Part shown: one piece after another, positions 1 to 52,600 of the stretch
Position numbering within the stretch: position 1 is the stretch's first letter
Layout: each line of letters starts with the position of its first letter
Source of the DNA: Branchiostoma floridae
Lineage: Eukaryota; Chordata; Leptocardii; Amphioxiformes; Branchiostomatidae
Reading direction: 5' to 3'
Assembly: GCF_000003815.2 (NCBI RefSeq)
Contig: NW_023365729.1
Coordinates: 368,994-432,993, forward strand
DNA length: 64,000 nt
Notes under the pieces: model-generated
What the model was told of the DNA's origin: nothing
Database searches by the model: none
The model's input: the letters and a program-made list of their open reading frames with translations, nothing else
Translations under genes and position numbers: made by a program

Positions 1-2737
1 TAAGCGTGTTAGCACCAGACAAAAATAGCAAAAGATAGTCGATATAAGTGGTAACAAGTTCATACCAGCAGGTAAGCGTTTTGGACAACTTTATTTTTGA
101 CAATTTTCTACCTCCAATTTTCCCAGTAATGAGGGAATGGGCGTTATGCGTTTATGACGATTTGCAGCATATTGTTTTAGCACATGCTGCTTGAGAGGGA
201 TCTTGGCGCAAAAGGGATCTTGGCGCATATACACGAAGTAGAACGCAATACGTACATCGCCAAATCAGTTTCATACACTTAACGTCATAGATATTCAAGG
301 GATAAAAATATATTGTATATAGTGAACATGGAGTGTATCTGGTCATTTCCTTGACGCTACAACGTTTAAAATAAATGATCCAAAATTCTAAGAACAAGCC
401 ACTGAGCGTCGCCCAAAAAACGAGTTTACTACAAAGATGACAAACGCATACATAACGCTTGTATGATACACATGTGACAAACATATAAAATAAACATATA
501 ACGTTACGTGTATCAAAACGTATACATCAAACATAAGTAAATTTAATCTGATAGAAATTCTATTTATCTGACAGTTTGTACTTAAAGGCAGACAGTTTTT
601 TGATGTTTCAAATGTAGTATGACGCGCTATAATTCCCAGAAAACAATAATGTTGTAAATTGTTACCTCTTTGTGACTAATAGTCTGATATAACTGACGTC
701 AGTACATTTAATCAACTGTCTGCCATACTGAGCTGTTTGGGCTAGGATCCCTCTTGTTATACATGTAGTTGTGCTTTTTGGCGCTCTCCTCCATCTATTT
801 CTCAACAGACGATAAGCATGAAGAAAGAAGATCCACAAGAGATGACAGACACCTGGGTTATACAAGGGGCGGCATCATCTTTAACACAGGACGTCACTGC
901 AGGTACGTCACAATCTACTATAATAATCGACAGCGTTTTGTTGGTATACGTACATATAATTGCAAATTTCAGTTTTAGTTATGCGTGAGGCAAAGGATAA
1001 GGTCCTATAACTTATCACTAGTCAAAGACATGGGAACCGTGTGAGAATTTATTTTGGAGGATCTAGGACAGAAAGGATACCCATATAATCATCGGTACCA
1101 TGAGCGCGACCTATTCTTATAGGTGGGACTGAAAATATCTAATGGTTTAGTAACGCCTTTCCTTCTCGTTCTTGTATGGAAGGGGGTGGGGTGGGGTATC
1201 GGCAGTGCGAAAAAAAATGCGAATATAAGCTCTCAATACAGGGCCTGATTGCATGAAATTCGGGATGTACAATGGACAAATATATCTTAATATTTCAATA
1301 GGCCAGGTCTTGAATTTATTCTACTTGAGTGAAATGTTTGTCCTCCCTCCCCCCCTCACCACCCGCAATTTTTTTTTTATATAATCAAGGCCTCCTTTAA
1401 TAATATCAAATGACCTGCAGCTAGTTGCTTGGGAATGTGCGGCTAGGACATTTTTCTGTTTCCTAAATGCAATATCCTAGTTATTATGAAAACTAAGGTG
1501 GTACTCAGGCTTAGAATGCAGACCTTTGAATTGATTTCTAATTTTTTTTTTACATTTTTACACAAAGATGGATACTTGCGCTCCTATGTCTATATTCTAG
1601 TAAAAGAAATGGAAAATTATTTGCTATCTGACCGATTTGGGCCTATTTTTGGGTACACTCTTACAAAATGTCTACCTTTTGTGAATTGTTGCAGACCAAA
1701 AATGTATGTATTTTCGGATCATATCATAAGAGCGAAGTGCAATAAACGGGTAGACTAAAAAAATGATATAGGGGTAAACGTTGAAATATGTATAGAAGTA
1801 GTGGAAAATTTTGCAATGAAAATTCTATTGTTGCATAGTAGTTCGGAAATATACTGAGTTTGCTCGGACATAAAGAAATAGAGTTGCAATTCTTAAGGTG
1901 CTGAGGAAAGATAATGAGGCCTCCTAATGTGTCATACTAAGTTTATACATAGAAGCTGCGGTCATTCAACAAGTAAGTAGCAAGCAAACATATCGACGTT
2001 AAGAAGCAAATTGTGAGCATTCATTTAGATGATGTTTAGTATGTTTTATTTGCGTCAAGCCCATAAGATTTCACTCATAGTTCACTCGCAGTCAAACAAA
2101 AATACGCGCTCCATCTTTAAATGATAAGTCTGGGACAACAATACGCCGATTCACAAACGACAGAGCCTTATCATATGATACCCAGATTTCTTTGAACATA
2201 TCAAAAAGGATTTTTTGACTGAAATTGCCTCTTTTAAGAAAATTATAATTACAATAAGTCGGCGTGGGAGGTCACAAATCAATGATAGTTTGTAAGGCTG
2301 GCAGTTTGCAGACCATTGTAACATTTCTCTTTCTTTGTTTTCTGTGAAGAACAAAGGAAAAGAGCGCCGTTTAAGCACGACTTATACAAGACACAAGAGA
2401 AATATAGCATGGGAAGAAAAGCTGCTGATGTTAGTCAGATACTATATGTGTTGGTATAAGACAGGGATGTTTTCATTATATCAAACATAACAAAGTGCAT
2501 GTCACCAGTCTGCTTTGTGTATCTGAGAAGTAAGGAACCCAAGTAAATATTCTTTCCAATACACCCACCCCCACCTCTCCCTTAATGTTAGAGGGACATA
2601 CTGTATTTCGATAGCTTCCTTGTTTGGGACAGTCTTCTGTCCTTCGTGGTATGGACTACGTTATACGTGTAGACGTTACTGGTGGCTTTGTGAATGGGTG
2701 GATTCTCACTTTTGGTGTGAACGAGGCATTCTAACTC
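1..2737. other. No recognisable gene; AT-rich intergenic DNA
   Basis: Only short open frames without family signatures occur here. There are small homopolymer or G-rich stretches near 1180-1200 and a T run near 1540. I see no RNA gene, coherent exon or clear mobile element. It could include upstream regulatory DNA of the membrane-lectin gene that follows, but nothing in the sequence shows that. Confidence 0.6.
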
Positions 2738-2951
2738 TTGTCGTTTAATACTGAAACAGATACAAACCCCAAGGCAGAATTCACTTCTGCCGAAAGGGTA
2801 GACACCAACACACCCCAGCCGACTTCTCAGAATCTTGATGGTGAGAACGCAGCCAATATAGAATCTACCAGTGTATATCCTGTAAGTGTAGGTCGCGGCT
2901 TTATCAACGAGATGTACGGTTGTGGTCCGTCTCAGCAAGCCGGAAACGGAG
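2738..2951 (+). CDS. Candidate first coding exon of the lectin/Vps62 gene
   Basis: An ATG-initiated frame of 71 codons ends in phase 1 at a donor (GGAG|GTATTA). It is rich in Thr, Asn and Glu with no hydrophobic stretch, as expected for a cytoplasmic tail. The phase-1 end fits the other cytoplasmic exons in this window. No homology supports it, the acceptor of the next exon is hidden in the N gap, and an overlapping antisense frame also exists. Treat as tentative. Confidence 0.3.
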
Positions 2952-5900
2952 GTATTATTTTTCACACCATATTTAATCGGGGTGAAATATAAGTAGGAGT
3001 TAGATATAATGTGTCACTGTTTTTCATTTTCAACTTGACAGACATCTAAGAATACTTCATTTGATTTTTATAAATCCTATAAAAGTATTTTTATTCAATT
3101 TCAAAATAATTAGTCCTTATGATAAGTGTTTTATCGTATTCAATTACTTATATAACATTGCCTACAGAGGCCTTTGAAGTATTTTTAAAAGAAACGTTCG
3201 ATTTGCATGAAATTTCCTGTTTACAGAAAATAACGCCTACGGTGATTGTGCAAACTTACGTGGTGACAAGTAACTATGATTAGAAAGTTTGTAATTCTGA
3301 TGAATTCTGGTAGTTTCTATAGTTTTATGACATTTGGTCATCCTTTGTGGCCTTTGAATAAAACGAAGATAATCATTCTTCAGTTTCTTTCGTGACAAGT
3401 AAGTTAACATAGGATGAAAAGTCCTAACTATAAAAAATGTTGATGTCAAGCTGATATTTTGTGTTTACTTTCCGTCAAATGAAAAGCCAAACTGATAGTG
3501 TTAGAACTGGTGATATCGCATGAAAAGTGCCACAAATTCAAACAAAGTAAGTGGCAATGGCATGTTCCATACATCTGAAAACTTATGCACACGTGGCCTA
3601 AATATATATCTATATATTACATCTTTATTGCAAGCTCAAACCGGAAGGCTAATTGCAAACAAAGTAAAGCAGTGATACATAATAATATAACAATATTGAT
3701 AGACAAATTAAAAGGGAAACAACATATTCTATTAAGCCATTTGATATGTTTGACTTCTCTTTTTGTATGCAGTGGGAGATGAATTGTCTAACATTTTCAT
3801 ATATAACGGGCGGGGTTGCACGATTGTGTTTTTCGTCTGTTACGATGTTATCAAAAAGTTATCATTTGTNNNNNNNNNNNNNNNNNNNNNNNNNNNNNNN
3901 NNNNNNNNNNNNNNNNNNNNNNNNNNNNNNNNNNNNNNNNNNNNNNNNNNNNNNNNNNNNNNNNNNNNNACTTCATTGATGCTGACAACCCTGCCAACAA
4001 CGTGTACCAGTCAATCGACGAAGATGACATCATGAACCAAGGAAAAGCTGGTATAGACAGAGAGAATGGACAACAGCCAACTGATGAAGAGAAAGACACC
4101 AGACTACCACACAAGATGCAGAGGGGCCCCTCTGACATGCAAAACAACCCGACATACGCGTCTGCTGCACAAGACGAAGGCAAAGGTACTCCAGCAGCAA
4201 AATTATTGATAAACAATTCTAATAACAATCATGAACCGTTTTTTCCCAATTTAGATGACCCAGTTATCAGTGTTACTATGTTTTTAAGATCTAATTATAG
4301 CAAATCTGTATGTATTATTTATGTTTTATATTTTGGTGTTTACCCTCAACACATCATCATTTTTGCGACTTAAATGACCAGCGAGGTCCAAATGTGTTGT
4401 CTTATATCTTTCTTTCAGTATTATGTTATTTTTACAATTTATAGATGGTAACTGTACATACCTTGTTTCATTAGCATGATAGGAATATTTTGACATGTTT
4501 AGGTGTGAATAATTTCTCATTGGTATCATTATTTGTGCAAAACGATCAGAAGGAACCTGTTTTGCACTAGCGATACTGACAATTCATTCATACTTTTCCT
4601 CTATGCCTTTCCTACTCTCCTTTTCCCCGTTATTTTCTTTTCACTCTAGAGTTTGACAGTTTTAACCTTTCCTAGATTCGCCAATGGTCACAAGTTGCTG
4701 CATGGCCTTTCTCCGTTCCCGTTTGCTCCGTGGCGTCATCGTCGCTGTAGCAGGTTTTGCCGTGGTCGCTATTGGCTTTCTTACCGTTGCATATCTCACT
4801 CTCATACCGGAGACAGAGAACGATGCAGAACCTAGTCTTGTAAGTATAAGATAAGGGTGCGTGTTCTTTTGTTGGGGGGGGGGGGGGCAGCTATGAATGA
4901 CATGAGCTAGGACTACAGCAGAGATACCTAGATGCAGTGCGAAGTATAACCAGTCAGTATTGCTACGAGGAAGGGGTTTTGAAATGTCAACTTAATCAAA
5001 ATACTTGGTTATGTTAGGCCTTCTTAGTAAAAGACTCACCAAACTGATGAAACTATTCCTGGAGTTCGTAGTAACATTTTACCATCTATAGTAATAGCAT
5101 TACCCAGGCTAAAGAGTGAAGCTTTGGAACCTACAAGGGACTATTCTCATGTTTTTCTGATTCTTGCAGTGTGTTGCAAAAAACAACTGTTCTCCAACTA
5201 AAAATATGGAATTTTCGATTGACTCGCCCAATCTTCTTTAGCTGGTTGACCATTTCGCTGAATTAGAAAAATTTATTTCTTCACAACGTAGTTAACCAAT
5301 TCAAATGAATGAATGCTAATTGTATCCAATTTCTTTGCCAACAAAGCACCTGACCAGCAAAACTTCTCCATCTGACCCACCTGCATGGATGTGGACCACC
5401 AGTATTACGGCACCTTATTCTCTGACAAATGTAACAGCCACACTGCCTGAGGACACAACTACACCCCAAGAAGTGACAAATTCTCCAGGTGTACCGACTA
5501 CAACTCCCAAGATTGCATCAGCAGCTGCAGACGCCGGTGAACGTGACACATCAACCAGCGTAAGTCTTTTTGATTCAGTGAAAAATACCGTAGCAGCAGA
5601 AGTTTTCCTCTAAACACAATCAGTCCGCAGACATTTTCAAATACAACAAAACGCACGGGTATATTTGTACATCCTAGACAATCTGGTCACTTAGAATTAG
5701 ATAAAACTTTTTCGGTATTTTTCAACATGATTGTTCCATGCGAGTTTCATTAGTAATGGCTGGGAGTACGTACCGGTAAAGAAACATCAGGTCCAGGTCA
5801 GGCCCAGGTCCAGAGGATCAGGTCTAGGTCCGGACCTAAACCTGGACCTTATTACCTGTGAAAACCTACGTCATGAATGAGCGATACTCAAAACAACAAA

Positions 5901-6687
5901 AACATTGCTAATTTCATTATCTTCGCGCTGCTACTTAACAGTTACCATATATTTTATCTCAAAATTCAGTTTTCTTCAGCTGCAACCAGCTTGAGGACAT
6001 CGGAGAATGCACTTGAGACTGAAAAGCAAGCTAAGTTAGCGACCAAGGAAGGTGAGATCGAGACCACTAATTTTCAATCCAGTTTTCTATTCAACACCAT
6101 TTTCTATTTACCAGTGTTTCAAGCATGGTTTTTATTGTATGACTTGTCTCGGATGATTCTGCCAAGTATTCACTACACTACAATACATGCGATTTGCTAT
6201 AGTGGACCCTAAGTTTGAAACGTAGTAGCAATGACTTACATTAAAGTTGTGCCTTCTACATAGAATTGACCCGTAAATGGGTAAATATAAAGTTATGCAT
6301 TTCGTCCGTTGATACAGAAACCGCCTTTGCCTGCTGGAAGGCGTCCTTGCACCTATCATGCCCATCTGGAAAGACCCTCACAATAGATTACGCCAACTGG
6401 GGCCGAACCACGTCCACACATTTCTGCACCTGCTTCACTTGTGACATCAACTGTCGCGCAGCCAACAGCCTGTCCATCATGAGGGGCGTGTGTGAGGGTG
6501 AACAGCAGTGCACCGTGACAGCAAGTGATCATGTGTTTGGTGACCCGTGTCCCGGTACCCAGAAATACTTGGAGACAACATACCGCTGTGTTTCAGGTTA
6601 GAACAATCATTTATGTTTTTGCAGGTTTGAAAAAGGCAGTCTGGTTTTGCTTTGTTCATTAGGGTGGCCACCTTATCTATCTATCTT

Positions 6688-6746
<59 letters not shown>

Positions 6747-9700
6747 AGGTATATGTATAGGTATATGTATATGTATATAGGTATATATGTATATGTATAC
6801 GTATACGTGTACGTATATTTGTATATGTATATATATACGTATACGTTTTCAAATGACTTTGAAATTGTATTCATCGGATGTAGTCGGGTAATGTCATGAT
6901 ATTCTTGTTAGTGAGAATATAGCGCACTGTTTGCTCTACCCAGAGGACATAGTTCTATCTTTAGACATTTCCTTAATAAATGTTGTTACAGTGACTCCTG
7001 TGACAGATGACGAACTAGGGGTACTAGTGACCAAGTACGCACCGAAAGTTTGGCTGGCAAAGAATGAGAAGTACAACCCTTCCAGTGTCGATTTTCACCT
7101 ACAGAACGTCAAGGTGTACGATGGTGGTAAATCCTATTTCAGCACACCTTCGACCCTTCCCACCTGTTCTGAGACCTGTTACATGAGTACTGCTCAGCCC
7201 CTGCGTTATCCCGATTCCCAACTGCGTTTCTTCGGTGGAGAGCAGGTCGGGCCCACCTATCAGCCTCCTGTCTATGCCGTTGTGAAGAGGATCGATCCGA
7301 CCACTACAGACATCTTCTACTGGATGTTCTACTCCTACAACGGACCGAAGAAAGTTTGTATGGGTAAGTTGATCTGATTAACAATCCAAGGATAATTAGT
7401 ATTGCTGTAATTATACGCCACCAATTACTTCCGGAGAAGATGAAGATGCTGTTATTCTGAAAATCAAAAGATTTGAAACAATTACCTTTTTTGTTTTGGT
7501 TTTACCCATTTAAAGCAATGCAATTAGGGTACAATGCCTGAACTGCCGTATACCTACTAAAATACTGTTAATTCTAATTTCTATGGAGCTGAATTACTTC
7601 ACAAAATTTTGGGTCACTCACTAAGCTCAACCAGTGGCATACTATGCTCTGTAACGGGTCATCTTTGTCCGATTGCGTGTTGGAATTTCGAAACAGAATG
7701 TGGCTGATATAACAATAGACAATAATCAAAAACACCGCTTTTTCGGTAACAAAAAATGGGTTTTGTACAAGACATGAATAAATTTCTCCAGCCCGCTCTT
7801 GGTTTGTAAACGCACGACGATCGTACAACGAACGTAACGTGCTCAAACTGTTACATGTTGACGGAAAGTACGGTGTTTACTTGAACACCTATTTTATCTG
7901 AATACATTAATGCATCATGAGGATAGTTTATTATAAAATTATTACTGATAACTTAAGAATGCTAAAACTTTGACGTATGAAATTATGAATATTTGCTGTT
8001 GCATGCCTTTAACAGGTTTCAGGTTCTTTGGTAAATGCGCCGGCGGCTTAAAGAGTTTTTCGCACCACGTGGGCGACTGGGAACACATGACCATTCGTCT
8101 GGTGGGAAAACAGCCAAGGAGCATCTATGTTTATTCTGCTCACAAATCTGGAGGTACATGACTTTCACTACGGATGTCCTGTAGCTTAACCGGTAGCAGC
8201 CACACATTTGAGCTCGTCGTTCCCATTAGTTGGTCTATCCTTTGTATGGCATCTCAGTTGAAGATGCCCCCGACTTTCGGAAGGGACGTACATGTTCATG
8301 GAAGTGCCAGCAACCCTTCCATGGAAAAATATACCCTGCACCTGAAACATCTAAGATTGCTTGATAAAGAAATATGGCGGAACGATAGTCTTTAGTAAAG
8401 TAAGCAATTAATCAAAACATGATTCCATACCAGCTTAGTACACAATGTAATACATTTCTTGATGATTGTCCAGGTATATACGACTGGGATCCTGCATCGC
8501 AGACTTACAGGAGGGGCAAAGATACCGTACAGACTGAAGGGACACATCCCGTTCTATATGCAGCCCATGGTACCTCTTTTGCACTATTTGTGGTAATACA
8601 TAGAGAAACATGTATTAAGTTCTTAGCACACCACATGCACACACACCACATGCACACACTGCTGCTATTCAATTTATTGCAAGCGAATGAAAAGTAGGGG
8701 CAAGTCTTAGGCACTAGGCAGGCAGGCAAAATGTGTGGCTACGTATACAGAGATTTTGCACTATGTCTATAATTCCTCTGAAACAAAGAACTTGCCAATA
8801 CTGTAACTTGAAAAAAGATAGAGGATGAGTGTCACTTTATTGTTGATTGTACTTTATACAACAACGAATGAAAAGTCCTTTTTGAAAATATACAACATAT
8901 GTTCCCTAATTTCCGATACTTGAATACCACGGAGAAATTCATATTTCTCGTGCAATTAGATAAACCATACATTATTGTTTCCATATGTCCTTTTGTTTAT
9001 AACTGTTTTTAGAAGCGAGAAGAAGTTGAACTTGTACAGACCAGAATGTATTAGCATATGTAGAGGTGATAAGATACCTTTTTCCTATATCAAAATTGTA
9101 CCTTATCACTAGCACTGCGACCTGTACTTAGCTTGTTTCAGGACAAATGTACAAAAAAGGTCATTCATTAATTTTGCTTTGAAATACTAGTACAGCGCAC
9201 ATATCATTAACCAACCAGAATATGAGGGTGGTCCTTGATTAAACAAACGAGCAAAAATGAGAGCCACAATATCTTAGATTGACCGAACAACACACAGACC
9301 CAGCTTAGACATCAAATGGCAGCATGCAATAACCATTGTATCACCCTCACAGGTAGTCACAAGCTGTGGTCCACCCCAGGTACTCACACATACAGGACGA
9401 TTATCATCAACGAGAATCTGAGTGACAAGACCAGTGCGGGTACGGCATGGGACACGTGGAAGAACGTGCCCTTCACCATGTACCGTCCTGATGGAGGCTA
9501 CACCGGGTCCTGGTCATGGCTCAACTACCAGGGACGGTGGGGGAACAGGAAGGTAAGTAACGTGCCCTTCACCATGTACCGTCCTGATGGAGGCTACACC
9601 GGGTCCTGGTCATGGCTCAACTACCAGGGACGGTGGGGGAACAGGAAGGTAAGTAACGTGCCCTTCACCATGTACCGTCCTGATGGAGGCTACACCGGAT

Positions 9701-10251
9701 CCTGGTCATGGCTCAACTACCAGGGACGGTGGGGGAACAGGAAGGTAAGTAACGTGCCCTTCACCATGTACCGTCCTGATGGAGGCTACACCGGATCCTG
9801 GTCATGGCTCAACTACCAGGGACGGTGGGGGAACAGGAAGGTAAGTAACGTGCCCTTCACCATGTACCGTCCTGACGGAGGCTACACCGGGTCCTGGTCA
9901 TGGCTCAACTACCAGGGACGGTGGGGGAACAGGAAGGTAAGTAACGTGCCCTTCACCATGTACCGTCCTGATGGAGGCTACACCGGGTCCTGGTCATGGC
10001 TCAACTACCAGGGACGGTGGGGGAACAGGAAGGTAAGTAACGTGCCCTTCACCATGTACCGTCCTGATGGAGGCTACACCGGGTCCTGGTCATGGCTCAA
10101 CTACCAGGGACGGTGGGGGAACAGGAAGGTAAGTAACGTGCCCTTCACCATGTACCGTCCTGATGGAGGCTACACCGGGTCCTGGTCATGGCTCAACTAC
10201 CAGGGACGGTGGGGAAACAGGAAGGTAAGCCAGGGTTTATGTTGTTGTTGA
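2738..10251 (+). CDS. Type II membrane protein with SUEL lectin and Vps62 domains (multi-exon gene)
   Basis: Gene model built from ten exons: 2738-2951 (tentative), gap to 4185, 4676-4839, 5347-5559, 5970-6051, 6318-6596, 6992-7363, 8016-8153, 8474-8569 and 9353-9552 (or up to 10224/10251). Phases agree across every junction from 4185 onward (1,0,0,1,1,1,1,1). Order: acidic cytoplasmic tail, one TM helix, Ser/Thr stalk, rhamnose-binding SUEL lectin domain, Vps62 (PF06101-type) domain. There is no signal peptide; the TM follows a hydrophilic N-terminus, which implies type II topology with lectin and Vps62 domains outside. Vps62 is named from a yeast sorting factor, but its biochemical role is poorly known. 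The exon plan matches the NHL gene at 46-57 kb. The 5' end falls near a 100-bp gap and the 3' end lies in a tandem repeat, so both termini are uncertain. Confidence 0.75.
3870..3969. other. Assembly gap (100 N)
   Basis: Run of N. It hides the 5' part of the cytoplasmic-tail exon of the lectin/Vps62 gene. Confidence 1.
3970..4185 (+). CDS. Cytoplasmic-tail exon (5' end in gap) of the lectin/Vps62 gene
   Basis: An open acidic frame leaves the N gap and ends in phase 1 at AAAG|GTACTC. It contains VYQSIDEDD and an NPTY tetrapeptide (within NNPTYAS). NPxY is a known clathrin-adaptor/PTB docking motif and SID-E-DD resembles an acidic cluster, so an endocytic sorting role for this tail is a reasonable inference. 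It joins in phase to the TM exon at 4676. The acceptor lies within the 3870-3969 gap. Confidence 0.65.
4676..4839 (+). CDS. Transmembrane exon of the lectin/Vps62 gene
   Basis: Acceptor CCTAG|AT and donor CTT|GTAAGT delimit 164 nt (phase 1 in, phase 0 out). The frame carries Cys-Cys and basic residues (RSRLLRG), then a strongly hydrophobic run of about 22 residues ([20 protein letters not shown]), then acidic residues. Positive charge on the N-terminal side supports an N-in, C-out (type II) orientation. The membrane-proximal CC could be palmitoylated (inference). Confidence 0.75.
5347..6051 (+). CDS. Ser/Thr/Pro-rich stalk exons (5347-5559 and 5970-6051)
   Basis: Exon 5347-5559 (phase 0 to 0, donor AGC|GTAAGT) encodes a Thr/Pro/Ser-rich stretch typical of an O-glycosylated extracellular stalk. 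The next exon is open only if it starts at 5970 (after AAATTCAG), phase 0 to 1; the stronger-looking acceptor at 5979 would break the frame. It ends at GAAG|GTGAGA. Together these space the lectin domain from the membrane. Between them, 5787-5852 is a cluster of CAGGTC/AGGTCC short repeats. Confidence 0.65.
6318..6596 (+). CDS. SUEL-type (galactose/rhamnose-binding) lectin domain exon
   Basis: One phase 1-1 exon of 279 nt holds a whole SUEL lectin domain (Gal_Lectin family). It opens with ACW and [19 protein letters not shown], continues with ten cysteines in all, and closes with [21 protein letters not shown], which matches the family's DPCxGTxKYLxVxYxC signature. This family binds L-rhamnose or D-galactose in fish-egg and sea-urchin lectins. 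The usual YGR sugar motif appears as NWGR here, so ligand preference cannot be assumed. Acceptor GATACAG|AA, donor CAG|GTTAGA. Confidence 0.85.
6680..6850. repeat. TATATG/TATGTA microsatellite in an intron
   Basis: About 170 bp of alternating ATGTAT-type hexamers lie between the SUEL exon and the first Vps62 exon. Simple sequence only; the long Tyr/Thr open frame it creates on the other strand is an artefact. Confidence 0.9.
6992..9552 (+). CDS. Vps62-family domain exons
   Basis: Four exons (6992-7363, 8016-8153, 8474-8569, 9353-9552) carry the hallmarks of the Vps62 family in order: [77 protein letters not shown] and [10 protein letters not shown]. The His/Asp/Glu set in HHVGDWEH is intact. 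All junctions are phase 1. The segment appears near complete; the normal short Cys-containing end after GRWGN is not found, and instead the exon runs into a tandem repeat. Predicted extracellular because it follows the TM and the stalk. Confidence 0.85.
7364..8015. other. Intron, nothing recognised
   Basis: AT-rich intron between Vps62 exons with GTAAGT donor and AACAG acceptor. No repeat or RNA signature was seen. Confidence 0.6.
8570..9352. other. Intron, nothing recognised except a short CACATGCA repeat
   Basis: Intron before the final Vps62 exon. It contains two or three copies of CACACCACATGCA near 8626-8660 and is otherwise unremarkable AT-rich DNA. Confidence 0.6.
9463..10230 (+). repeat. 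Eight in-frame 96-bp coding repeats, each ending in a splice-donor consensus
   Basis: Eight head-to-tail copies of a 96-bp (32-codon) unit, starting at 9463, 9559, 9655, 9751, 9847, 9943, 10039 and 10135. Copies differ at only a few silent-looking bases. Each encodes the Vps62 C-terminal block from [12 protein letters not shown] to QGRWGNRK plus Val-Ser. Val-Ser is encoded by GTAAGT, so each copy carries AG|GTAAGT (the last is GTAAGC) at 9553, 9649, 9745, 9841, 9937, 10033, 10129 and 10225. All eight donors leave the same phase (0). If none is used, the frame ends at the TGA of 10249-10251, with an AATAAA at 10310. Recent tandem duplication or an assembly artefact are both possible. Confidence 0.95.
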
Positions 10252-10309
10252 ACCTCCAGTGTGAGATACCGGTAGATTCCCCTAGCCACAATGAAATAAT
10301 CCTTACCCA

Positions 10310-10315
10310 AATAAA
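10310..10315 (+). terminator. Candidate poly(A) signal AATAAA for the lectin/Vps62 gene
   Basis: AATAAA lies about 60 bp after the stop at 10249-10251 that ends the read-through form of the repeat exon. If real, the repeat exon would be the terminal exon. Not confirmed by any transcript. Confidence 0.35.
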
Positions 10316-10504
10316 CCATTTACTAGGATATACCAGGGTACATACAGCTATAAACAGCATCATTCATAGACCTCCTAAGTGCCTTGAAGTTCGAAAAACT
10401 ATGTTTTCGGTTGTTGTTTGTGTGATGATATGTGTGTATGTGAACAGCACCAGAATTCGTTGATGGATCTTAGATTTGTTATGTTGGTTGTTTTCAAAAT
10501 TAAG

Positions 10505-10690
10505 AAATCATAATATCAAAGGGCTTAGAGGGCGCCTTTCGCGGTACTGCAGCAGGACTTTCAGTTTTGATATCTATTTCGTCCTGATATTGGCCAAGTG
10601 GAAAATATCTAGCTTTCAGAGGTGGTTGGAAAGATAATATCTCAAGAATTGGTTCACGGAATGTCGTGATTGTTGGTATGTAGATAGCTA
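10505..10690. repeat. Probable dispersed repeat fragment (LINE-derived?)
   Basis: The stretch containing GCGGTACTGCAGCAGGACTTT and GAATTGGTTCACGGAATGTC resembles, by eye, the repeat at 44690-45056 (GGTACTACAGC..., followed by GGTATGTAG-like text). It is suggestive of an old non-LTR 3' region. A repeat-library search would decide. Confidence 0.3.
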
Positions 10691-10917
10691 AAGGGATACC
10701 TTACATAATGAAATGATAACACACGAAGGTCAGTGTTTCTCCACAAATCTATATTTCTGTTGTATAAAAAAGGGATGTTGATTATAACGGCTATCAAAAT
10801 GTTTTAGAGGTGATGCGTGTCTAGGGTCTGTCCATATTTGCAGCAAACTTCTGAATGCGAATCCAGCAAAGGAGAAATCCAAAATACAACAGGGACACAT
10901 ACAACTTTAGTGCAACC

Positions 10918-10923
10918 TTTATT
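10918..10923 (-). terminator. Candidate poly(A) signal for the GPCR gene
   Basis: TTTATT on the plus strand is AATAAA on the minus strand, followed by a T-rich 3' flank. It would imply a 3' UTR of about 1.6 kb for the GPCR, which fits the AT-rich non-coding stretch 10924-12501. Confidence 0.35.
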
Positions 10924-12501
10924 CAGGACAATTTTCCACAAAAATATCTTTTTTTGGGTGCAAAATCAGTTCAATCGTCCTTCTGCGGCATACATATACC
11001 TCTCTCGTTATTTTACATAAACCCGACATTCTACTGGCACACATATTGTGGACATTATATATAGGTTGAACAGAAGTATACAGCACAACAATAACACAAA
11101 TTATGATACTTCTACACTATATAGCGCATTGATAAAAGTAATTATATACTGAACTATCATATGACGATTACAATTTCACAAAACTATAAATGCGAACACA
11201 ACTGATTAAATAGACGTCAACATCAAAGTAAACACTTGATATTTTTACACATAAACCGTAAAGTCAAACACAATATAATCATTTCCCATTCAAAATATTT
11301 CCCTTTCGTCACAGTAAGGCACACAGGCTAAGACGATTAGGTAGCCAAGAAAGGATCCAATACGAAGATTTTAGCTAGTTCAACCAACTCCTGCAACTCT
11401 TGCAAAATTGACCTTTGGGGTCATCTTCCCTCATACACAATGTCAACCTGCTGACAAACAAACAAAAATATAAACTCTGTACAAGTAAATGATAAACTCA
11501 CGTCTTTATCTCAAGTCTGGATAAACAAGTCCAAACACTCCAACTACAATATAACGCCAAATGAAATAAGCTCTAAATAGGTATATCTAAAATCCAGACA
11601 TGTGTCCGTTGTATCAGTCGTTTTTGCATTTTACAAAACTGGAGCAAATGCTACAAATATCCTATTACATCATTGGCATTGTTTAACGAAACACTCATTT
11701 TGATTTGACCAAACTAGATACTTAACGTAAACTCGCTTCCCAAATCCTCCTTGTGATAAATGTCCAAATCGGATGCCCATTGTGCCTTCCCTGAGAGGAT
11801 AACTCTACCTGCTTAAATCTTTCGAGGCCAATTTCTTTTAATCCTCCAAGCTGCAAAGGACTTAACCAGGGCTATGTAAATATAATGCGTAAGCTAAGAG
11901 GCTGTCATGGTGACTCAATATTACGAGCTTGTCAAATAAAAACATTTTAAATGTCTACTGAACACAATACCAACTGAACCGAGCCATTAGTATGTTTATA
12001 GTGTTTTTGTCTGCGAGGTAGTTATTGCTACAGCAAGCTGCAAACACTTTCTTATTACCTGAAATATCACAAATGCTCGCCATCATACGCTACTGTCATC
12101 ATAATGTAAACAATCTACTCAACCAATAACATGGAATGAGCGGATAGAGTAAAGCATCTGTAATATGATGATCAGTCGAAGTCATCCTTTTGATCTCATT
12201 ATGTGTGACGCACATCCTTCAGCTTCCAAAGTGATGATAAAATGGGCATAAACATTAATTTAGCGAGAAATTTTCTCTACATTTCATGTTGAAAGCAAGA
12301 AATTACATGCTTAGCTGCCCAGAAGCGATTAGCAAATTGGCATCAGTTTACTTCTTTCGAGTGAGCTAGCATAATTGGTGGTTAATTTCAAACATTCTGC
12401 TCACTGTGAAGTGACTCTGCCCTATTCTATTTCCAAAGATTTGAAGGTTATGAAGAATAGGTCTACAAAGAATTTTCCTGTACGTTTGAAACAGTCTTCT
12501 G
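10924..12501 (-). other. Putative long 3' UTR/flank of the GPCR gene
   Basis: There is no other gene here. The part at about 11950-12330 has a diverged copy at about 15960-16335 (shared blocks include AATAACATGGAA, AAAGCAT and AACATTAATTTA). Retention of similarity over non-coding DNA marks an old duplication of the 3' flank of the GPCR. Confidence 0.5.
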
Positions 12502-13158
12502 TTATGGACCTTGTCCTTCAAGACTTGGTGTCTTGATGTTGATATTTTCAACACGGGTTTGCTTGTTCTTGCTACATCCGCAAAACACATACCCCCATAG
12601 AGCCTTGAGCTCCTTCCGAAACTCCTTGTTTCCAGCAGTGTAAATGATCGGATTCACACATGAATTACAAGTGAAAACAATCCTTGCCACAAGGTTTAGG
12701 ACTCGTAGACTTTCCCCGGTCTTGTACGCGAAGATGTCCATGATCACTTCTGGAGTCACGCAGACGTTGAAGGCGATGTATATTGCTGCCATGTTCTTGA
12801 TCTGGCTCAGGACGACGGGCGGGATTTGGTTCTCGTCTGTCCCGTTGGCGTGGACGCGGGCTTTCGAAGCTTTGACCTCGCGGTAGATCAGGACGTACGC
12901 CACGATGATGACAGCGTTGGCAATGATGGCGAATGGCAGCATGATGCTGATGACGTAGGTGAAGGATGCAACGGCGTCGTAGTCGCATGTCAGGAGTATC
13001 GGGTTGAACCCTGGCTTGCCGAGCCCGGCTAGCAGAGGACTTGTGACAAGGAAGGCAACCGCCCAAGACCCTGACACCAGCAAGGCGCACCTTTAAATGT
13101 AAAAATAAAGTATGGTTATCATTCAGCTCCTTCCCTCTTTCTCTCTCTCTCTCTCTCC

Positions 13159-13233
<75 letters not shown>

Positions 13234-13961
13234 TTGCTATAACCGTTTTTATCATAATTTAGCAGATGCCATCATTCATTTTCATGATTCATTCTGTATT
13301 CCGTAACTAGTCAAGTAAAGATCTTATCTCAACTTTCCTCATATCCTGTCACTTCGTTTGATCCTAATCCTCTATAAAATGTACTTCACCTCGTGTTCTG
13401 CTGCCTATATCAGTAGTACTATCAAAGTAGTGCATATCTGCACATTTCANNNNNNNNNNNNNNNNNNNNNNNNNNNNNNNNNNNNNNNNNNNNNNNNNNN
13501 NNNNNNNNNNNNNNNNNNNNNNNNNNNNNNNNNNNNNNNNNNNNNNNNNTACACAAGCAACGTACAATTCAAGAGAATGCTAAGCACCTTCTATGGGAGA
13601 ACAGCTCATCGTAGCGGTGACTCTTGGTGATGCGGACGCAGCGGCTCAGAGCAATAAGCACCGCGGACAGGACCGACTCGTAACAGCTCAGCAGCCCGAC
13701 GATCCCCGTCACGACGCAGACGGCGTGGTCCCTGAGGCCGCCCGACCGCGCCACCGACACCGCCGACACCGGGCCGTACAGCGCCGTGAAGATCAGGTCA
13801 CTCACAGCGATGTTCACGATGAAGAGATTCAGCCGTGTCCGGAGACGCCTGCATCTTAAAATCACGAAGATTACGTGAAGGTTTCCGACAACGCTAAACA
13901 CAGTCAGTAGACTAAACGTTGCTGGAACTAAATCCTGTTCCAGCCGGCTAACATTCGCCAT
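12502..13961 (-). CDS. Rhodopsin-class (class A) GPCR, orphan, two exons
   Basis: Exon 1 13588-13961 (ATG at 13961, donor AG|GTGCTT, phase 2) and exon 2 12502-13090 (acceptor AAAG|GTGCGC, stop TAA at 12502-12504) give 320 residues with seven TM segments. Hallmarks: GN in TM1 (VVGNLHVIF), LNLFIVNIAVSDL in TM2, Cys before TM3 and Cys in loop 2 (LLTCDYD), Trp in TM4 (SGSWAVAF), Pro in TM5 (IMLPFAIIANA), CVTP in TM6 in place of CWxP, NPIIY in TM7, and a Cys pair in the tail. The TM3 E/DRY motif reads SRC (ALSRCVRI). TM7 lacks the retinal lysine, so it is not an opsin. The general look is closest to melatonin-like or orphan amine/peptide receptors (inference). The intron holds a CT/CA microsatellite and a 100-bp gap. 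Confidence 0.88.
13136..13231. repeat. (CT)n(CA)n microsatellite in the GPCR intron
   Basis: A CT run followed by about 70 bp of CA dinucleotides between the two GPCR exons. Confidence 0.95.
13450..13549. other. Assembly gap (100 N) in the GPCR intron
   Basis: Run of N between the two GPCR exons; it does not interrupt coding sequence. Confidence 1.
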
Positions 13962-15106
13962 ATCTGATCTCTGTCGGTCCCTCTGGTGCCCAAAACATGA
14001 ATGCTAATTCTACGGCCACGCCTCAAACGACCAGATAGGCTATACGAATCTGTTGCTAGGTGATAGTAATCATCATCTTACGTGAGGAGCAGCACTATAT
14101 CTAGGACGGGTGTCCATACATATATATGTCCTTTGAAAAGACGAAAATTCTCTTCATCGCACTGGGGCCGTGGTTTATCATCTAAGAGGATCGGATATCA
14201 ACAGTTTCTTAGCCGCACTGCTGCGTTCAAAAGCTGCACCGACTGAACAGTTCTATCAAGCATCGAATCGAATTCAACATTTTCCTGAACATAGATCCAG
14301 ATGGGCCACAGAAATCTCGTTGTTTGAAATGTTTTGTCTTTGTTTTTGCCTTGTAAGATATAGAAACATGTTATTGATATGATCTCTTTGAAAAGAAAAA
14401 TAAACAAGAAGGGATCAAACTATATCTGCGACAGCGAACAAAATCTGAATGTGTATGATACAAATTACAAACGTTTGGAATTTCAGAATGTTTACACCAG
14501 TTGATAAACGGAGATTGTGGGAGTCGTAGAAACGAACAAGGAAGGCATTTAGGCAAGTGTATTTCCCTTGACACATTTTCTGGTCCATACTAATATAGCC
14601 CAGTTAACTTCATGTCGTGACCCTGGAGCGGTGATATTTTTATAGGATGTTGCGACAGTCATGTACTATATGATTTTGTTTCCTGAAAATAAGAAAAAGC
14701 TTTTTATGAATTTCTAAATTCAAAAGATTATTTTAGGGGGTGACCATAACTTTATCAGTCAACATCTCAATATGATAAGATGTAATGAATTTTCCAACAA
14801 GGAACCAAATAAACTAACATATCTTCATCAACGTTCTTGAGTATTGTTTACACTGCCGAAGCTACGAACTAGGGCTTCAAAGTTTAAAACTCCCAAATGT
14901 GTAGTTTGGTCCCCCTCAATGTGGCATCTGCTTATCTTTCAATAGATTAATTGTTTTGACACCTCCTTGCAAAAACAAACGCCTCCTTGTCTGTAATTAT
15001 CTTTGATTATGCACAGAAGGCAGACAATAACGCAAACTGAGACAATGTCATTCATTCATCCAAGCCCTGATTGAAATGTCGTCAGACCACAGTCAATGAG
15101 ATATCT
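13962..15106. other. GPCR upstream region; nothing recognised
   Basis: Upstream of the GPCR start codon. The promoter should be here, but no clear TATA box or other motif can be defended. The rest is AT-rich with only short frames. Confidence 0.5.
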
Positions 15107-15118
15107 GCTGCAGTGTAG

Positions 15119-15290
15119 TCTCCAAGCAGACCCTACGGTGCCTTAGAAATAGTATCAAAGCTGGCAAGGGACTTAGCATAGCGGCACCAGTTTGACTCCC
15201 TTTAGCCGGCTATCTCCCTTTGGCCGGCTATACTCCTTTGCCAGCTTTGATACTATCTCTTTAGGCACCGTAGGGTCTGCTTGGAGACTA
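15119..15290. mobile_element. MITE-like element with long terminal inverted repeats
   Basis: The left end TCTCCAAGCAGACCCTACGG and the right end CCGTAGGGTCTGCTTGGAGA are exact reverse complements. A second inverted block follows (AGTATCAAAGCTGGCAA / TTGCCAGCTTTGATACT). The same 12-bp GCTGCAGTGTAG flanks the element at 15107-15118 and 15291-15302, a possible target duplication. Related ends recur near 35940-35970 and 62286-62330, so this is a dispersed family. Confidence 0.75.
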
Positions 15291-15302
15291 GCTGCAGTGT
15301 AG

Positions 15303-15957
15303 TAAGGAAGTTAAAAGTAAAAGGACCCCCATTGAGTAGATCTTTTTGGAAGAAAACTGTTTTAGTGGAAATGCTATGAGAGACAATATTCAGGGCTTAG
15401 AACACTTGTTGAGAGCCGTCAACTGATTATAGAATTGTTCAGCATAGGACACAGATGCGCAAGAACTGTCGTCACCAATCGTTGCACAAGTTATCACGCA
15501 ATAAAAATTTACTGATGGTGCCTCATCAAAAAGACCCTCTCAGCCGAAAACAACCTCTTTCCTCATGCATCAAAGAGAGTGATAGTTACCTCCTAATAGA
15601 GACTGACGGCCGAGCGTTAGGTTCAGTGGATAACTGGGACAATCTTGGGCAGCGTTTCCTACCATCAATTGACCTTTCACAAAGCTCTTCAAGCAACGTG
15701 GATTGAATTTTACACTAGAAACCCAATTTCTATTGTTTTATGATACTAATACCAATACCAATATATTATACTTATTCACAAGCAGATAAAAAAACGCCAT
15801 CCGAAGATAAAACTTTGATATTACAAAAATATGCAATTTGGATATGTAGGTGATAATGAATCCTGGTATATTATATCGAAAATAAACTTCTATGTATATA
15901 TTGCAAATTGGATCTAATACGAGAGAATAACTGACAATCACTGATCGTAAGGATCCA
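15303..15957. other. Nothing recognised
   Basis: Short frames only, including one of 83 codons from 15455 with no family features. Confidence 0.5.
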
Positions 15958-15959
15958 TG

Positions 15960-16335
15960 TTATCCGAGAAGGAATTACTGTTTACAGAAGGCAATAAATA
16001 TCAACTCAACCAAGCCAGCATTTTTCTCCACTTTGAATGGTTTTGTCTGTAAGATAGTTATTGTTGCAGCTATGATATATCTACCTAAATACTCGAAATA
16101 CTTGCAGCCTTTCGTTACTGCAATTTTGATGGAGGCAATTCACTCAACTAATAACATGGAAAGCTTACATAGAATAAAGCATTTGATGATATGATGGTTC
16201 AATGAATAGCGGTCCATTCAGCTCGTAACGTAAATGATGAGAATGGGGCAGAACATTAATTTATTGAGGAATTTCCTTGAATCTCGTGTGAAAGCTACAG
16301 ATGAATTTACTCGAGCTTAGCTGCGAATAAATTTT
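15960..16335. repeat. Diverged second copy of the GPCR 3' flank
   Basis: Similar along its length, in the same orientation, to 11950-12330: blocks such as GATAGTTATTG, CTCAACTAATAACATGGAA, ATAAAGCAT, AACATTAATTTATTGAGG and GTGAAAGC occur in the same order. Similarity fades beyond 16340, where the coding exon would be expected, and no GPCR sequence remains there. Suggests a tandem duplication whose receptor copy was lost. Confidence 0.6.
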
Positions 16336-17563
16336 CCCAACAAAACATCTTTGCACAACTAAGGAACACAAGTACTGGCTTCACTCATTGGTAAATGCTG
16401 GAGATTTTATTGGCTGTACACATTGACATATTAGTATGTTTCCTATATGCCGGTTTAGGTACCTATGTTTTGCACTCTTTTTTTCTTTTTCAAACAAACG
16501 CTGATAACATATTGAATTAAGAGACTCTTTTTACATAAACATTAATTCATTATCACCAGCGTTTCGGTGACAATAAGTTCATACTGGACTGCAACACAGG
16601 TGTCGCTGCTCACAGTTGAGATGCAGTTACAAACGCAAATATACAAGTGTACAGATTGGCTATAGAAAGAGTCCCTTTATTGAATGACGTACCAGCTTGC
16701 TTATCTTTCCACGGAGCTAATAAGATATGCTTATTTTCTAGGATGGATGTAATGCATTTATCGAGGGGCTCAGCGGAGAATGCGTACTAAATGATGGGCC
16801 ACAGTCTATCAGCACCAGGCCCCCGATGAAAACTGACAAGTTAGACTAAGAAGGTTAGGAAGAACTATTGAATGGTACAATGGGTTGCAGCTTATCTTTA
16901 GCCTAAGTGCCATCCTGAGTGCACATCTATCCAACAGTGTGAAGGTTCTGAAATTCACACCGTGACAGTAAGTGGGGCAAAATAAACTAACTAATGTTAC
17001 AATTAGGCTACTGTATATTTTCTATGCTATTAGAAAGTTCTAACTGTAATAAATACCGCTCAAGGTCAATTTTTAATGGTGTTATTGAAATACTCCCATG
17101 TTAACCTGGTGTCTTCTGGATTTTCCTGCAAAAATATATAAATGCCCCCAAACTGTATGGTGTCCAAATGCCTTCTATAAGCACGAAATATACTGAAAAT
17201 GGAACATATATTACTAATTGACAGGTTGTTTCCATTTCCTTGTTACAAATCACTGTAGTAAGAACTTCAAGGGGAAATGCGTTTAACAGGTGGATCTTTG
17301 GATGTGATGTTTTGGGCAGATCTGAACCTTACGTTTTGAACTCATCACAAAATTTCATCTAAATTATATCACAAAAGACAGTAACAGTTCCTATGGTACA
17401 ATGTACTGTCTTGCCAACTGTATAAACATATTCTAAACATGATTGATAATAGCCTACGATCTTCATGAGTTAGTGAGTCAACGTGTTCAACCGTTTTCCA
17501 GTTAGATGTACATTGTATAGAATTGTACTGCCAGTTCATTCTAGGAACGTTGAAGAAGATTGA
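16336..17563. other. Nothing recognised
   Basis: AT-rich DNA without a coherent exon, repeat or RNA gene that I can defend. Confidence 0.5.
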
Positions 17564-46687: not shown

Positions 46688-49600
46688 GTAAGGACTTACA
46701 AAGTGTACTTTTGTTTCAAAATATTGTGTTGACATGTAATGTTTTTCTGTAAGAGAGCTTTTAGAAAACATGACCCATCCATGAGCTATTTGTTTTTCTC
46801 TTTGTATTTATCACAATTTCAACTATATCGAACAGAATAACGAGAAAATATAAGGACCTTGCCCAGTTTCTGTTTAACACTGTTTAACACGCATTTGGTA
46901 GGCATTTCTAGTACTGCGCCGTTTTTCAAACAAGTCTCCTTTTTGATTGACAAAAAAAAAGATCAATACTAAAACGGTATGATAATTTTTTTTAAATCAG
47001 ATGTAAAACTCTTTGACTGAATCACAACATCTATATCTGTTACACTGCCCTAACTACAATCATCAGAGATCTTCCCTCTTCGGCAATTTGAGAAGACTGG
47101 TAGGTTTTGATATGGACAATCTATCTGACGACAATTTAGTACAATTGCTTTTAAATGGATCTTCTTTTCTGTCCTCTGCAGACAACTCCAAAATATTAAT
47201 GTTTGTGCAGACTTTTTTAATAGATACCAATCGCTTCAATAATGACTAATCATCATCCTACCAGTCTTCAGGGACTTAGTTAATCATCATATTCTCAGTT
47301 TATATATTTGAATCTTCATTTGTTGTTTTGCTTCAGTGCTTTGCCTACTTGTTATTTTGTTATCTTGTCTTGTTATCTTGTATTTATCTATCCATGTATT
47401 TGTATTCTTTTGCGGTGGCGGCATGAATATAAGTCACGACTTGAGTGTGCCGTCACCATGTCTTGTAAATATATGTTGCAACAATAAAAAAAAACAACAT
47501 CTATATCTAACTGGACATAGATAAATTTTAGTTAACGAGTGGTATCAAGCAATATAAGAAAAGAAAAAATTAGATGTACATTATATTTGCACACTGGTCA
47601 TGTCTGAGTGGAAAATGATTTTCTATTCTGTCATTTGCAATTATGCAGCCAGGACGCCTTTAGATTTTTTACCCGGTATTTCGCGTTCATTTACCATAGA
47701 GACGATAAGCGCACTCCATCCGTGCTGAAACTGTTTTGTGTACGCTGGCCTTTTTTTTTCTGTTTGTAGATTTCATAGATTAGATCTGATTATTTATCAC
47801 ATTCATTTAGCTCTGAAAAGTATTTAAAATAAATATCGTGATAACTGAAAAAGTTGTGATAATAGATCTTGGGTTTAATGTCTCATTAATTCACCAATTG
47901 AGAGGTATAAGTATCTTCTACTGGAGAATTAATGTGATAGCAACCCCCTTATCACATTAATTCTCCATACAGATATCTAGTATTCTATATGGAGAATTAA
48001 TGTGATAGCAACCCCTTTATCACATTGATTCTCCAAAGAGAGATCCAGGATTCTTATATGGAGAATTAATGTGATAGCAACCCCTTTATCACATTAATTC
48101 TCCATAGAAAGATCCAGAAATCTTTACTGGAGAATTAATGTGATAGCGACCCCCTTATCACATTAATTCTTCAAAGAGAGATCCCGGATACCTATCTGGA
48201 GAATTGATGTGATAGCAACCCCTTTATCACATTAATTCTCCATAGAGATATCCAGGATTCTTCTACTGGAGAATTAATGTGATAGCAACCCCTTTATAAC
48301 ATTAATTCTCCAAAGAGAGATCCAGGATTCTTATATGGAGAATTAATGTGATAGCAACCCCTTTATCACATTAATTCTCCATAGAGATATCCGGGATTCT
48401 TTTACTGGAGAATTAATGTGATAGCAACCCCCTTATCACTTTAATTCTTCAAAGAGAGATCCCGGATTCCTATCTGGAGAATTAATGTGATAGCAACCCC
48501 TTTATCACATTAATTCTCCATAGAGATATCCAGGATTCTTCTACTGGAGAATTAATGTGATAGCAACCCCTTTATAACAATAATTCTCCAAAGAGAGATC
48601 CAGGATTCTTATATGGAGAACTAGAGTTCCTCGAACACACATCTTCGCCAAATAAACATTCTTTATCGAAGGTCGTTGTTTTTGAATGATTAATGTATGT
48701 AATTATGGCTATAATGGGCCGGATAAGCACCAAATACAGCTTAATACGAGATGTTAATATAGCAAAGCTGGATGTAAGGTCTTTAGTTAGGCTAGGTTAG
48801 GTTAGGTCTTTAGTTTTATATAAGATTTCACTCTACAAAATGTACCAAATACAGCTTAATACGAGATGTTAATATAGCAAAGCTGGATGTAAGGTCTTTA
48901 GTTAGGCTAGGTTAGGTTAGGTCTTTAGTTTTATATAAGATTTCACTCTACAAAATGTACATTGCAGTCTTTTCGTAAAAAAAGAAATAATAAACAAACT
49001 TTGAGTGAATATTAGATAATAGGTCATCTAAGGGTTACCTAAGGGTCATACGTAAGGATTGTTACGGCCCCGCCTTGGTGAATGTTTGTGTCCATCTCAT
49101 GAAAATAGTAAGTAAAGTTTTGCAATCGCGAGTTAAGTGAGAGGTATTTTACACAGTCTACCTGGCCTGGCTATCACGTCAGGCTACTCAGATCCCCCCA
49201 TTCATAGCCCCGCAAAGACAAAATAGCTGATTGACAGGCATAGTAATTGCTAATATCCAAGTATTAGTATATTCATAAGCCTTACTTAGATCCTCCTCTA
49301 CAACCTAGCACAAACCGAGACAAGATACGATACCACCCGCGTTCTATGACCGCACTCGTTCAACCCGGAAGTATATGATATTGTCGTAATCGGTTGCACG
49401 GAAACCCCCATGCAGTGTGAAATCGAGGCCAAAATCAGGCAAAAAGAGCCAGTTTGAAGGCCAACTTTGACTCTTCAAATCTCATCCCGAAATAGTATTT
49501 GAATCATTAAGCGTACTGTATGCGATCGAACAACTCATGAGGATTACGTTGGCACCTTTGACAGCCTGATTTGGCCCACCGCGATGTTTTAATCTTTTTT

Positions 49601-52600
49601 TACGTGACCATGTCTTATGCCTCAAACGGGCGGGCGTGTAACACCCTGCCATGGCATGACGATTAGTTCTGCTCCACCTTTGATTTGTCTGTGCTAAGAC
49701 CCGGAGACTGAGGGCAGGGGGTTAATTTGGTGTGACTGGCCCTTGTCAGGGAAAGGAGATCAGGCTTCTGCTTCTGTCTGAAGGGCTTGAATGATAAATG
49801 AAGATTAATGGTCCACACATTAGTGCTGGACTAGGGTGACAATGGTGACAGTGTCATGTTGCACTGCACACCTTTTGTAAGGGATGTGGTTCTCTCCATG
49901 ATAAGAATCCCAAAGTATTTATATTAAGTAGATCGCAATTTACATAATTAGCATCTCATTATGTTGATAATCACCCTAAGTACCTACCTACCAAAAGTAA
50001 AGAATATCCATCAATCCCCTCTGCAGTTATCCTTTTTAAAAGTTACAAACTATAAGACCCACTGCAGTTCCAAACAAGCTGCTAGGGGGCCCAAAATTAC
50101 ACCATTCACTCCTAGTCCCAACAGCTATCCACCACTTAAAAATGATGAACATGGCACTTCTGGAAAATTTAGGCGCAAGCTTTGACGCTCACTTGCAGTA
50201 CCAAAACAAGTCGCTAGGAGGCCCATTATCGAACTTGACCTTCCTTTCTGTGTCCCCTACCTATCAACAAAATATCATTAGCATCCATGTAGAACATCTC
50301 GAGTTACCGTGTTAACAGACAAACGCAATTACATACAAAGCCAGCTACAGCACCATAGGTAAAAGCTAGCTAAACCATTCTCGCACATGACAATCCTTTA
50401 CACAACCGCTACACACCTGCCAAATATCGTAGAAATCGCCCAGCTGCATTTTGAGTTATGCTTCTCGAAACAAACCTCGAAAAAATACAAAGGTCGCTGC
50501 TGTACCGTAGGAAAACGCCAGGTAAACCATTTTCAAACTAGGCATGCCTTTCGACAACCGCTACACACCTACAAAAAATCAAAAAGTTCCATCCACAATT
50601 TCTCGACTTATATGATGTTGACCTACATACAGACCCAAGTAAGCAATCTTATAATCTTCGCTGGCGAAGATAATTAATGTGATAGCAACCCCTTTATCAC
50701 ATATACCTCATATATGATATATGGGTACATATACATATACCACTGTTTGCCCTTGCCCTAGCCATGACTCTAGGTGTAAAGGAGAAACTAGTTTATAAAG
50801 GTGGCACCAATATGGAAGCCATGAGTCACGTTGAGTGTAGTTACCAACTTTGTTTCAAAATGATGCCAGTCTATCACATTAAACGAGTGTCACTTTTTAT
50901 TCACCAGTGCACTTATTGAATACATGAATGCCTTGTTGGCTATGATACCATGTTTTGTCGTGTCAATTCTTGTTTACAATGTTTATGGTGCCTATTTTGA
51001 CAATGTGGCCAACTTGCTTTTGTACCCATCTTTTTTTCGCCCTATCTCGCTATTTTTGCAGTCTGCTAAGGGTGTCTTACATAAAATTTCCTTTCTGTAA
51101 GAATGAGAAGTTAACTGCATGTGTTCCGACTCTATCGGTCTTCTTTAGTCTCAGTACTAGTATATAAATTACCAACGTCTCCACGGCCTACCCTGGGAGC
51201 CAGACAGAAACGGGTAGCTAGCGAGATTTGTTCGCGAGTTTTGTTCAGCCCGCCGACCTCACATTAGCGCTCCGGGGATTTTCAGCCCGGAGGAGTTATC
51301 GCTACCCTCTTCCTAATCGGGCTTAAACTCCCCGGGGCGCTAATAGGAGCTCGGCGGGCCTAATTGTCTTGGGCTACCGAATAACTGTCCTAGCCTGCCC
51401 GATCTCGGATGGCCCCCAGGGTACCACGGCCTAGCAATCTGGATCCAATTCCATGGATCTGCGGGCCTGTGTTCGATCCCAGGGTCGGGTCGGCTCGGCT
51501 CGGACATGTTGTAAGACTTGTAAGAGATTGCTTTAGTCTTTCGGAAGGGACCCCGACCTAAAATGGAACTACCTTGTTCCTACCTGGCCTGACGAACTCT
51601 CAGAGTTCTCTATGATGATAAAAGCTCCTTGGACAAACCCAGATGACTTTCTATGCCCCATCCCGCGGTGTTGGGGGAGTACCCTGTGACGTCTTTTCCG
51701 GTCTCATGTTCCCAAAATAGGGGGCGCTTCGTCAGTTTTCTCCAAAACAAGGGCGTTATATAACCAACTGAAGTATATGTACGTAACATTCATAAAGTTT
51801 TTCCCCAAATAAAGGACATTATGTAACACCAAAATGTAACGTGTCTGGTGTTTAATTCCGTAAACGATTGCATGCTGTGAACTGGTGACGGTAACCACAT
51901 TCTGATGCGAACAGGCCTTTATCACAACTTTGTCAAATTAATTCACCAGTAGAAGAAACATGGATCTCTATTTGGAGAAATAATGTGATAAGGGGGTTGC
52001 TATCACATTAATTCTCCAGTAAAGATTTCTGGATCTTTCTATGGAGAATAAATGTGATAAGGGGGTTGCTATCACATTAATTCTCCATATAAGAATCGTG
52101 GATCTCTTTATGGAGAATTAATGTGATAAGGGGGTTGCTATCACATTAATTCTCCAGTAAAGATTTCTGGATCTTTCTATGGAGAATTAATGTGATAAGG
52201 GGGTTGCTATCACATTAATTCTCCAGTAGAAGATTTCTGGATCTTTCTATGGAGAATTAATGTGATAAGGGGGTTGCTATCACATTAATTCTCCATATAA
52301 GAATCGTGGATCTCTTTATGGAGAATTAATGTGATAAGGGGGTTGCTATCACATTAATTTTCCAGTAGAAGAATCGTGGATCTCTCTATGGAGAATTAGT
52401 GTGATAAGGGGGTTGCTATCACATTAATTCTCCATATAAGAATCGTGGATCTCTTAATGGAGAATTAATGTGATAAGGGGGTTGCTATCACATTAATTCT
52501 CCAGTAGAAGATTCCTGGATCTCTCTATAGAGAATTAATGTGATAAGGGGGTTGCTATCACATTTCTTCAGAAGAAGGTTGAAAATCCTTTGGCGAAAAA

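Follow-up and report, generated by a model that had tools for sequence, protein, structure and literature searches.

Within the window, which here means the whole 64,000-nucleotide stretch of Branchiostoma floridae DNA that we analysed, one coding exon runs into eight tandem copies of a 96-bp unit, and every copy contains its own splice donor. The original prediction took this arrangement for a possible length-variable protein, with one isoform for each donor used. In this study, we investigated whether the copies are likely to be read as protein or removed as intron.

The array and its host gene

Tandem Repeats Finder reported a 96-bp unit in 8.0 copies at 9463-10229, with 99% matches, 0% indels and a score of 1506, which is far beyond chance. 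The array is a minisatellite of the mirage type and occupies 9463-10230 on the forward strand as 8 units of 96 bp. A single unit consists of 90 nt from the 3' part of an exon and exactly six intron bases, GTAAGT, and the eight units depart from their consensus solely at unit positions 30, 45, 81 and 96. The GT dinucleotides of the donors begin at 9553, 9649, 9745, 9841, 9937, 10033, 10129 and 10225. All of them follow the same Lys codon in phase 0, as AG/GTAAGT in units 1-7 and with GTAAGC in unit 8. Donors 1-7 are identical, including their 9-mers, and their sequence is near-ideal. The first donor (GTAAGT, 9553-9558, forward strand) lies at the position homologous to the sole donor of the array-less paralogs, and the eighth (GTAAGC, 10225-10230, forward strand) closes the last unit. 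The reading frame from 9352 passed through all eight units without a stop and ended in KVSQGLCCC followed by a stop codon, the read-through tail QGLCCC and its stop being located at 10231-10251 on the same strand. AATAAA was found at 10310, about 60 bp past the read-through stop. These results bear out the eight in-frame copies, the donor in the same phase in each and the downstream AATAAA that had been predicted.

The host gene, from a lancelet, combines SUEL-lectin and Vps62-like exons, all on the forward strand. A SUEL lectin domain (PF02140, E 2.1e-21) was found in an upstream exon at 6314-6601, and Vps62 matches were found in upstream exon regions at 6987-7374 (E 7.8e-8 for the open frame 6892-7374) and 8018-8158 (E 3.4e-5). 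A further upstream coding exon was placed at 8452-8569; its end is given by the donor GT at 8570, and its start marks only where homology begins. If spliced at donor 1, the array-bearing exon is the penultimate coding exon, with 200 nt at 9353-9552, a CAG acceptor directly 5' and an AAG/GTAAGT end. The terminal coding exon, DGCNAFIEGLSGECVLNDGPQSISTRPPMKTDKLD followed by a stop, was located by tblastn with the exons of paralogs at 16742-16849 (phase 0, E 1.8e-9). Its acceptor, TTTTCTAG, and its phase both fit, and AATAAA occurs downstream at 16981 and 17048. When 8452-8569, 9353-9552 and 16742-16849 were joined, they formed a single open tail that closes with a stop codon, and the junction from donor 1 to 16742 was open, in frame and led into the conserved C-terminus. 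Since this conserved terminal exon lies at 16742-16849, the array exon is not the last coding block. The array had been described as the last Vps62 block; however, no Pfam match above noise was found in the array-bearing exon, and Vps62 (PF06101) belongs to the upstream exons of the same gene. The last intron of the Vps62-like gene, between the array and 16742, also harbours a 7TM_1 receptor gene on the reverse strand at 12502-14003, recognized from two open frames (E 5.8e-13 and 2.6e-17).

Related genes with and without the array

A search of the genome with the 67 residues of the exon gave 21 rows, which correspond to six loci. Besides the window gene, these are an inverted paralog at C171:343845-342968 and four array-less paralogs, of which two are on C5, one on C14 and one on C244. 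Each of the four array-less paralogs has a single exon end, located where donor 1 lies in the window gene, with AAG/GTAAAA, GTAAAC, GTAACC and GTAAAT. The next exon, which is the terminal one, was directly visible in two of them, and tblastn with these two located the terminal exon near the other loci; at the C14 locus it was matched over its last 27 residues only. The array-less paralog at C244:10069-10277 carries the exon in two frames, apparently from a small insertion. The array in the window shows three of the features by which mirages are known: the host is a lancelet, the tandem repeat is of minisatellite size, and the unit crosses an exon-intron boundary, whose place within the unit is given by the four single-copy paralogs. 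In agreement with a lancelet host, a 185-residue lancelet sarcoplasmic calcium-binding protein, which corresponds to PDB 2SAS over its full length, aligned with contig C18 exon by exon at 58-95% identity in 13 of 15 rows, the other two rows showing 28-40%. A search for the GFP family gave 0 matches, which does not demonstrate that the family is absent.

The inverted paralog (C171:342968-343845, reverse strand) lies about 35 kb from the window gene and holds a collinear 8-copy array. In the one assembly used, the unit count is 8 in both array-bearing paralogs, with identical register. Openness through every copy, which would mark a coding repeat, was observed in the window gene and not in the inverted paralog, where copy 5 is 101 nt long, having a 5-nt insertion and a stop, and copies 6-8 are out of frame. 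The read-through tail ends at once in the inverted paralog, and neither the tail nor the AATAAA is conserved there.

We then compared the two genes. Their array units showed a mean identity of 97.9%, differing in register at 11/768 positions. Identity was 78.2% in the 110 exon nucleotides next to the array and about 60% in the flanking intron, and the remaining exon matches between the two genes ranged from 74.5 to 89.6%. The variants 45A (units 3 and 4), 30C (unit 5) and 81A (unit 8) occur at the same places in both arrays, and when the order of the units was permuted 20000 times, 116 arrangements matched equally well. A recent transfer of the whole array between the two genes is probable, because the units are about 98% identical between them and the adjoining part of the exon only 78%. 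That the array is far more alike than its flanks also suggests a conversion confined to the array. The recent expansion in the original prediction is upheld in the sense of recent turnover. Its other proposal was an assembly error. Inflation from a single copy is improbable, given that the units carry distinct variants and the second gene holds a collinear array; the exact count of eight rests on one assembly.

Reading frame and other donor-bearing arrays

Given 90 nt of exon in the unit, reading through requires a unit length divisible by three (3n) and a donor phase that keeps stops out of GTAAG. GTAAG reads Val-Ser in phase 0 and Lys in phase 1, and it contains TAA in phase 2. Both conditions are likely enough by chance, at about 1/3 for the length and 2/3 for the phase. 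The window array stays open because its unit happens to be 3n and its phase-0 GTAAGT reads Val-Ser.

We next examined other arrays in the genome. Triple AGGTAAGT patterns with spacings of 80-110, 111-141 and 49-79 bp matched 90, 70 and 169 places, and reversing the pattern gave 44, 28 and 69; these counts are of overlapping places and not of loci, and the details for 49-79 bp come from 100 of the 169 matches. Uniqueness of the window array in the genome was rejected, since arrays elsewhere also carry one donor per unit. The frame was inspected in 14 donor-bearing arrays. A 21 bp array at C3:33807162 (weak Furin-like match, E 0.053) and a 90 bp array at C4:415527 (NBR1-Ig match, E 1.4e-5, under its cut-off) were open throughout with a donor in each unit, and thus resemble the window array in being open through their donors but belong to other genes. 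The 51 bp array at C2:10584453 had three open units and then a stop, and the 83 bp array at C5:8855580 (M16 peptidase match, E 0.0023, under its cut-off) had a stop after 6 residues.

Several further arrays were observed. About ten Cys-rich, coding-looking 75-bp units, each with AGGTAAGT, were seen by eye at C3:33796619, where the frame is lost at a single spacing of 74. Two dispersed families with 51-bp (AAGGTGTGTTTCC) and 68-bp (AACAAGACTGTTGG) units containing AGGTAAGT were found on many contigs. In the window itself, the same 69-bp unit forms two arrays in opposite orientation at 47914-48620 and 51933-53596, related arrays of 75-121 bp lie in opposite orientation at 59499-60473 and 63444-63810, and a 24-bp array of 5 copies with 97% matches lies at 54589-54707.

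The periods of 32 regular donor-bearing arrays left remainders of 0, 1 and 2 on division by three in 8, 9 and 15 cases. Since 3n periods (8/32, p 0.35) were not in excess, there was no sign of selection for the frame. One commonest spacing per locus was entered, read by hand among the matches listed, and the position at an exon edge was established for a minority of the 32 arrays. The tally omits the two dispersed families (51 and 68 bp), those rows of the 49-79 bp search whose letters were not shown, unless the spacing was plain, and, as irregular, C1:222126, C3:3270846, C5:27498643, C7:1869087, C8:24176113, C11:19394615, C193:177496, C2:2301197, C10:20933357, C13:1015550, C13:22083840 and C14:2452449. 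C5:4435968, C5:26403084, C7:24065663 and C13:21739601 were retained although only roughly regular.

Variation among the copies was also examined. Across the 15 units of 96 nt in both arrays (the 101-nt copy 5 of the inverted paralog was excluded from the per-site list), seven coding sites were variable, of which 4 were silent and 3 residue-changing (p 0.056). Variants common to two or more units were silent in 4/4 cases (expected 23%, p 0.003), in a split between shared and single variants that was made post hoc. The silent shared variants may reflect selection on translated copies, or arrays re-seeded from the real exon copy under selection.

Lancelet mirages and the choice among donors

Mirages have been described as tandem repeats across exon-intron boundaries in lancelets, with Adh3 and other genes cited as examples (PMC3087553). 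Regular splicing of mirage genes was reported from RT-PCR, the AG/GT signals of mirages were considered able to serve as cryptic sites, and a globin mirage had 6 units in one haplotype and 3 in the other (PMC3087553). In PGBD5, the first copy of the 60-bp and 108-bp repeats abuts the 5' splice site and the copy numbers differ between two lancelet assemblies; the same paper also mentions troponin C (PMC3902484). The original prediction had regarded the present arrangement as undescribed, but lancelet mirages are thus already published (PMC3087553, PMC3902484). Our literature search, which covered mostly papers available without subscription, found no translated mirage with a donor in every unit.

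The Adh3 mirages (Canestro et al. 2002, PMC117041) resemble the window array as lancelet minisatellites that span a boundary, with splicing reported undisturbed. Papers citing that study report length and somatic instability of the Adh3 mirages, and one of them gives units of 10-72 bp, compared to 96 bp in the window array. The globin mirages of BflGb6 and BflGb9 share with it duplicated exon edges with AG/GT signals, and concerted evolution and a copy-number difference between haplotypes are reported for them; however, in BflGb6 the 3' end of the intron and the start of the exon are duplicated, and the globin units measure 150-160 bp (PMC3087553). The globin arrays were compared in two haplotypes (PMC3087553), whereas the window array could be compared in two paralogs. 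A globin search of the genome gave 9 matches. The PGBD5 repeats also begin at the 5' splice site, and both of their periods are 3n, but their copies are imperfect and the extra copies were excluded from the protein by the authors (PMC3902484). Human internal tandem repeats likewise involve minisatellite expansion that alters exons and introns in recent paralogs; they differ in lying in segmental duplications, and one donor per unit is not described in the accessible part of that report (PMC2812944).

One rival reading holds that all eight donors are used and that functionally relevant proteins of 1-8 copies, or an unspliced eight-copy protein, are made. The 3n period, phase 0, eight copies without a stop, near-ideal donors, wholly silent shared variants and the AATAAA after the read-through stop agree with this proposal. 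It is nevertheless unlikely: copy 5 of the paralogous array is broken, the tail and AATAAA are not conserved in the inverted paralog, the exon is single-copy in four paralogs, 3n periods are not commoner than chance, the published lancelet cases splice normally in the reports cited, and an exon up to donor 8 would measure 872 nt. The background frequency of AATAAA in the 64-kb window is about 0.056 per 80 nt per strand. The original prediction of a length-variable protein is therefore unsupported. An extended form, in which genomic copy number would be a menu of identical donors sampled by splicing, giving a C-terminal 1-8 copy series in two inverted paralogs homogenized by conversion while selection keeps the variants silent, seems to us similarly improbable. 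We attach an equally small probability to a mixed pattern, with donor 1 dominant, donors 2 or 3 used at a low level and minor isoforms with one or two more copies of little function, to which the identical donor 9-mers and the potential of mirage AG/GT signals as cryptic sites (PMC3087553) would point.

Two other explanations are less probable still. Tandem duplication can create introns in a model published for other genes (PMC4974935), and here a donor might be spliced to an AG inside the next copy, so that 96-nt introns are removed between copies. Each unit does contain several AGs, but they have no pyrimidine tract, and removal of 96 nt would merely restore the single-copy exon, which makes this a very remote prospect. 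Inflation of one or a few true copies by the assembler would agree with the high unit identity and with the unequal PGBD5 mirage copy numbers in two lancelet assemblies (PMC3902484). It is hardly compatible with the distinct variants of each unit and with an independent collinear array that has a private insertion in the inverted paralog.

Judging from the sequence comparisons, the array is most likely a lancelet mirage minisatellite in which donor 1 is the main site and copies 2-8 are mostly intronic. It would have arisen by tandem duplication of a stretch straddling the 3' edge of the coding exon and the first six bases of the intron. The spliceosome would recognize a 200-nt exon bounded by the acceptor just 5' of 9353 and by donor 1, this exon would be joined to the terminal exon at 16742, and copies 2-8 would be removed as the start of the intron. 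Because donors 1-7 are identical, donor 1 would be favoured solely by exon length and order. Later donors may quite possibly be used at a low level, since the window array is intact, donors 1-7 are the same and the shared variants are silent. Unequal exchange or conversion may have altered the copy number, and the complete array appears to have been transferred recently between the window gene and the inverted paralog, which lies at a distance of about 35 kb.

These results indicate that reading in frame through such an array needs no selection, as it is enough that the period is 3n and that the donor is in phase 0 or 1. The locus provides a clean example of a lancelet mirage, in which the ancestral donor position is revealed by a set of six related genes, of which four lack the array and two carry collinear arrays. 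It also offers a test case for how the spliceosome selects a donor when as many as eight near-identical ones follow at 96-nt intervals, and for the copying of an array between inverted paralogs while their flanks diverge.
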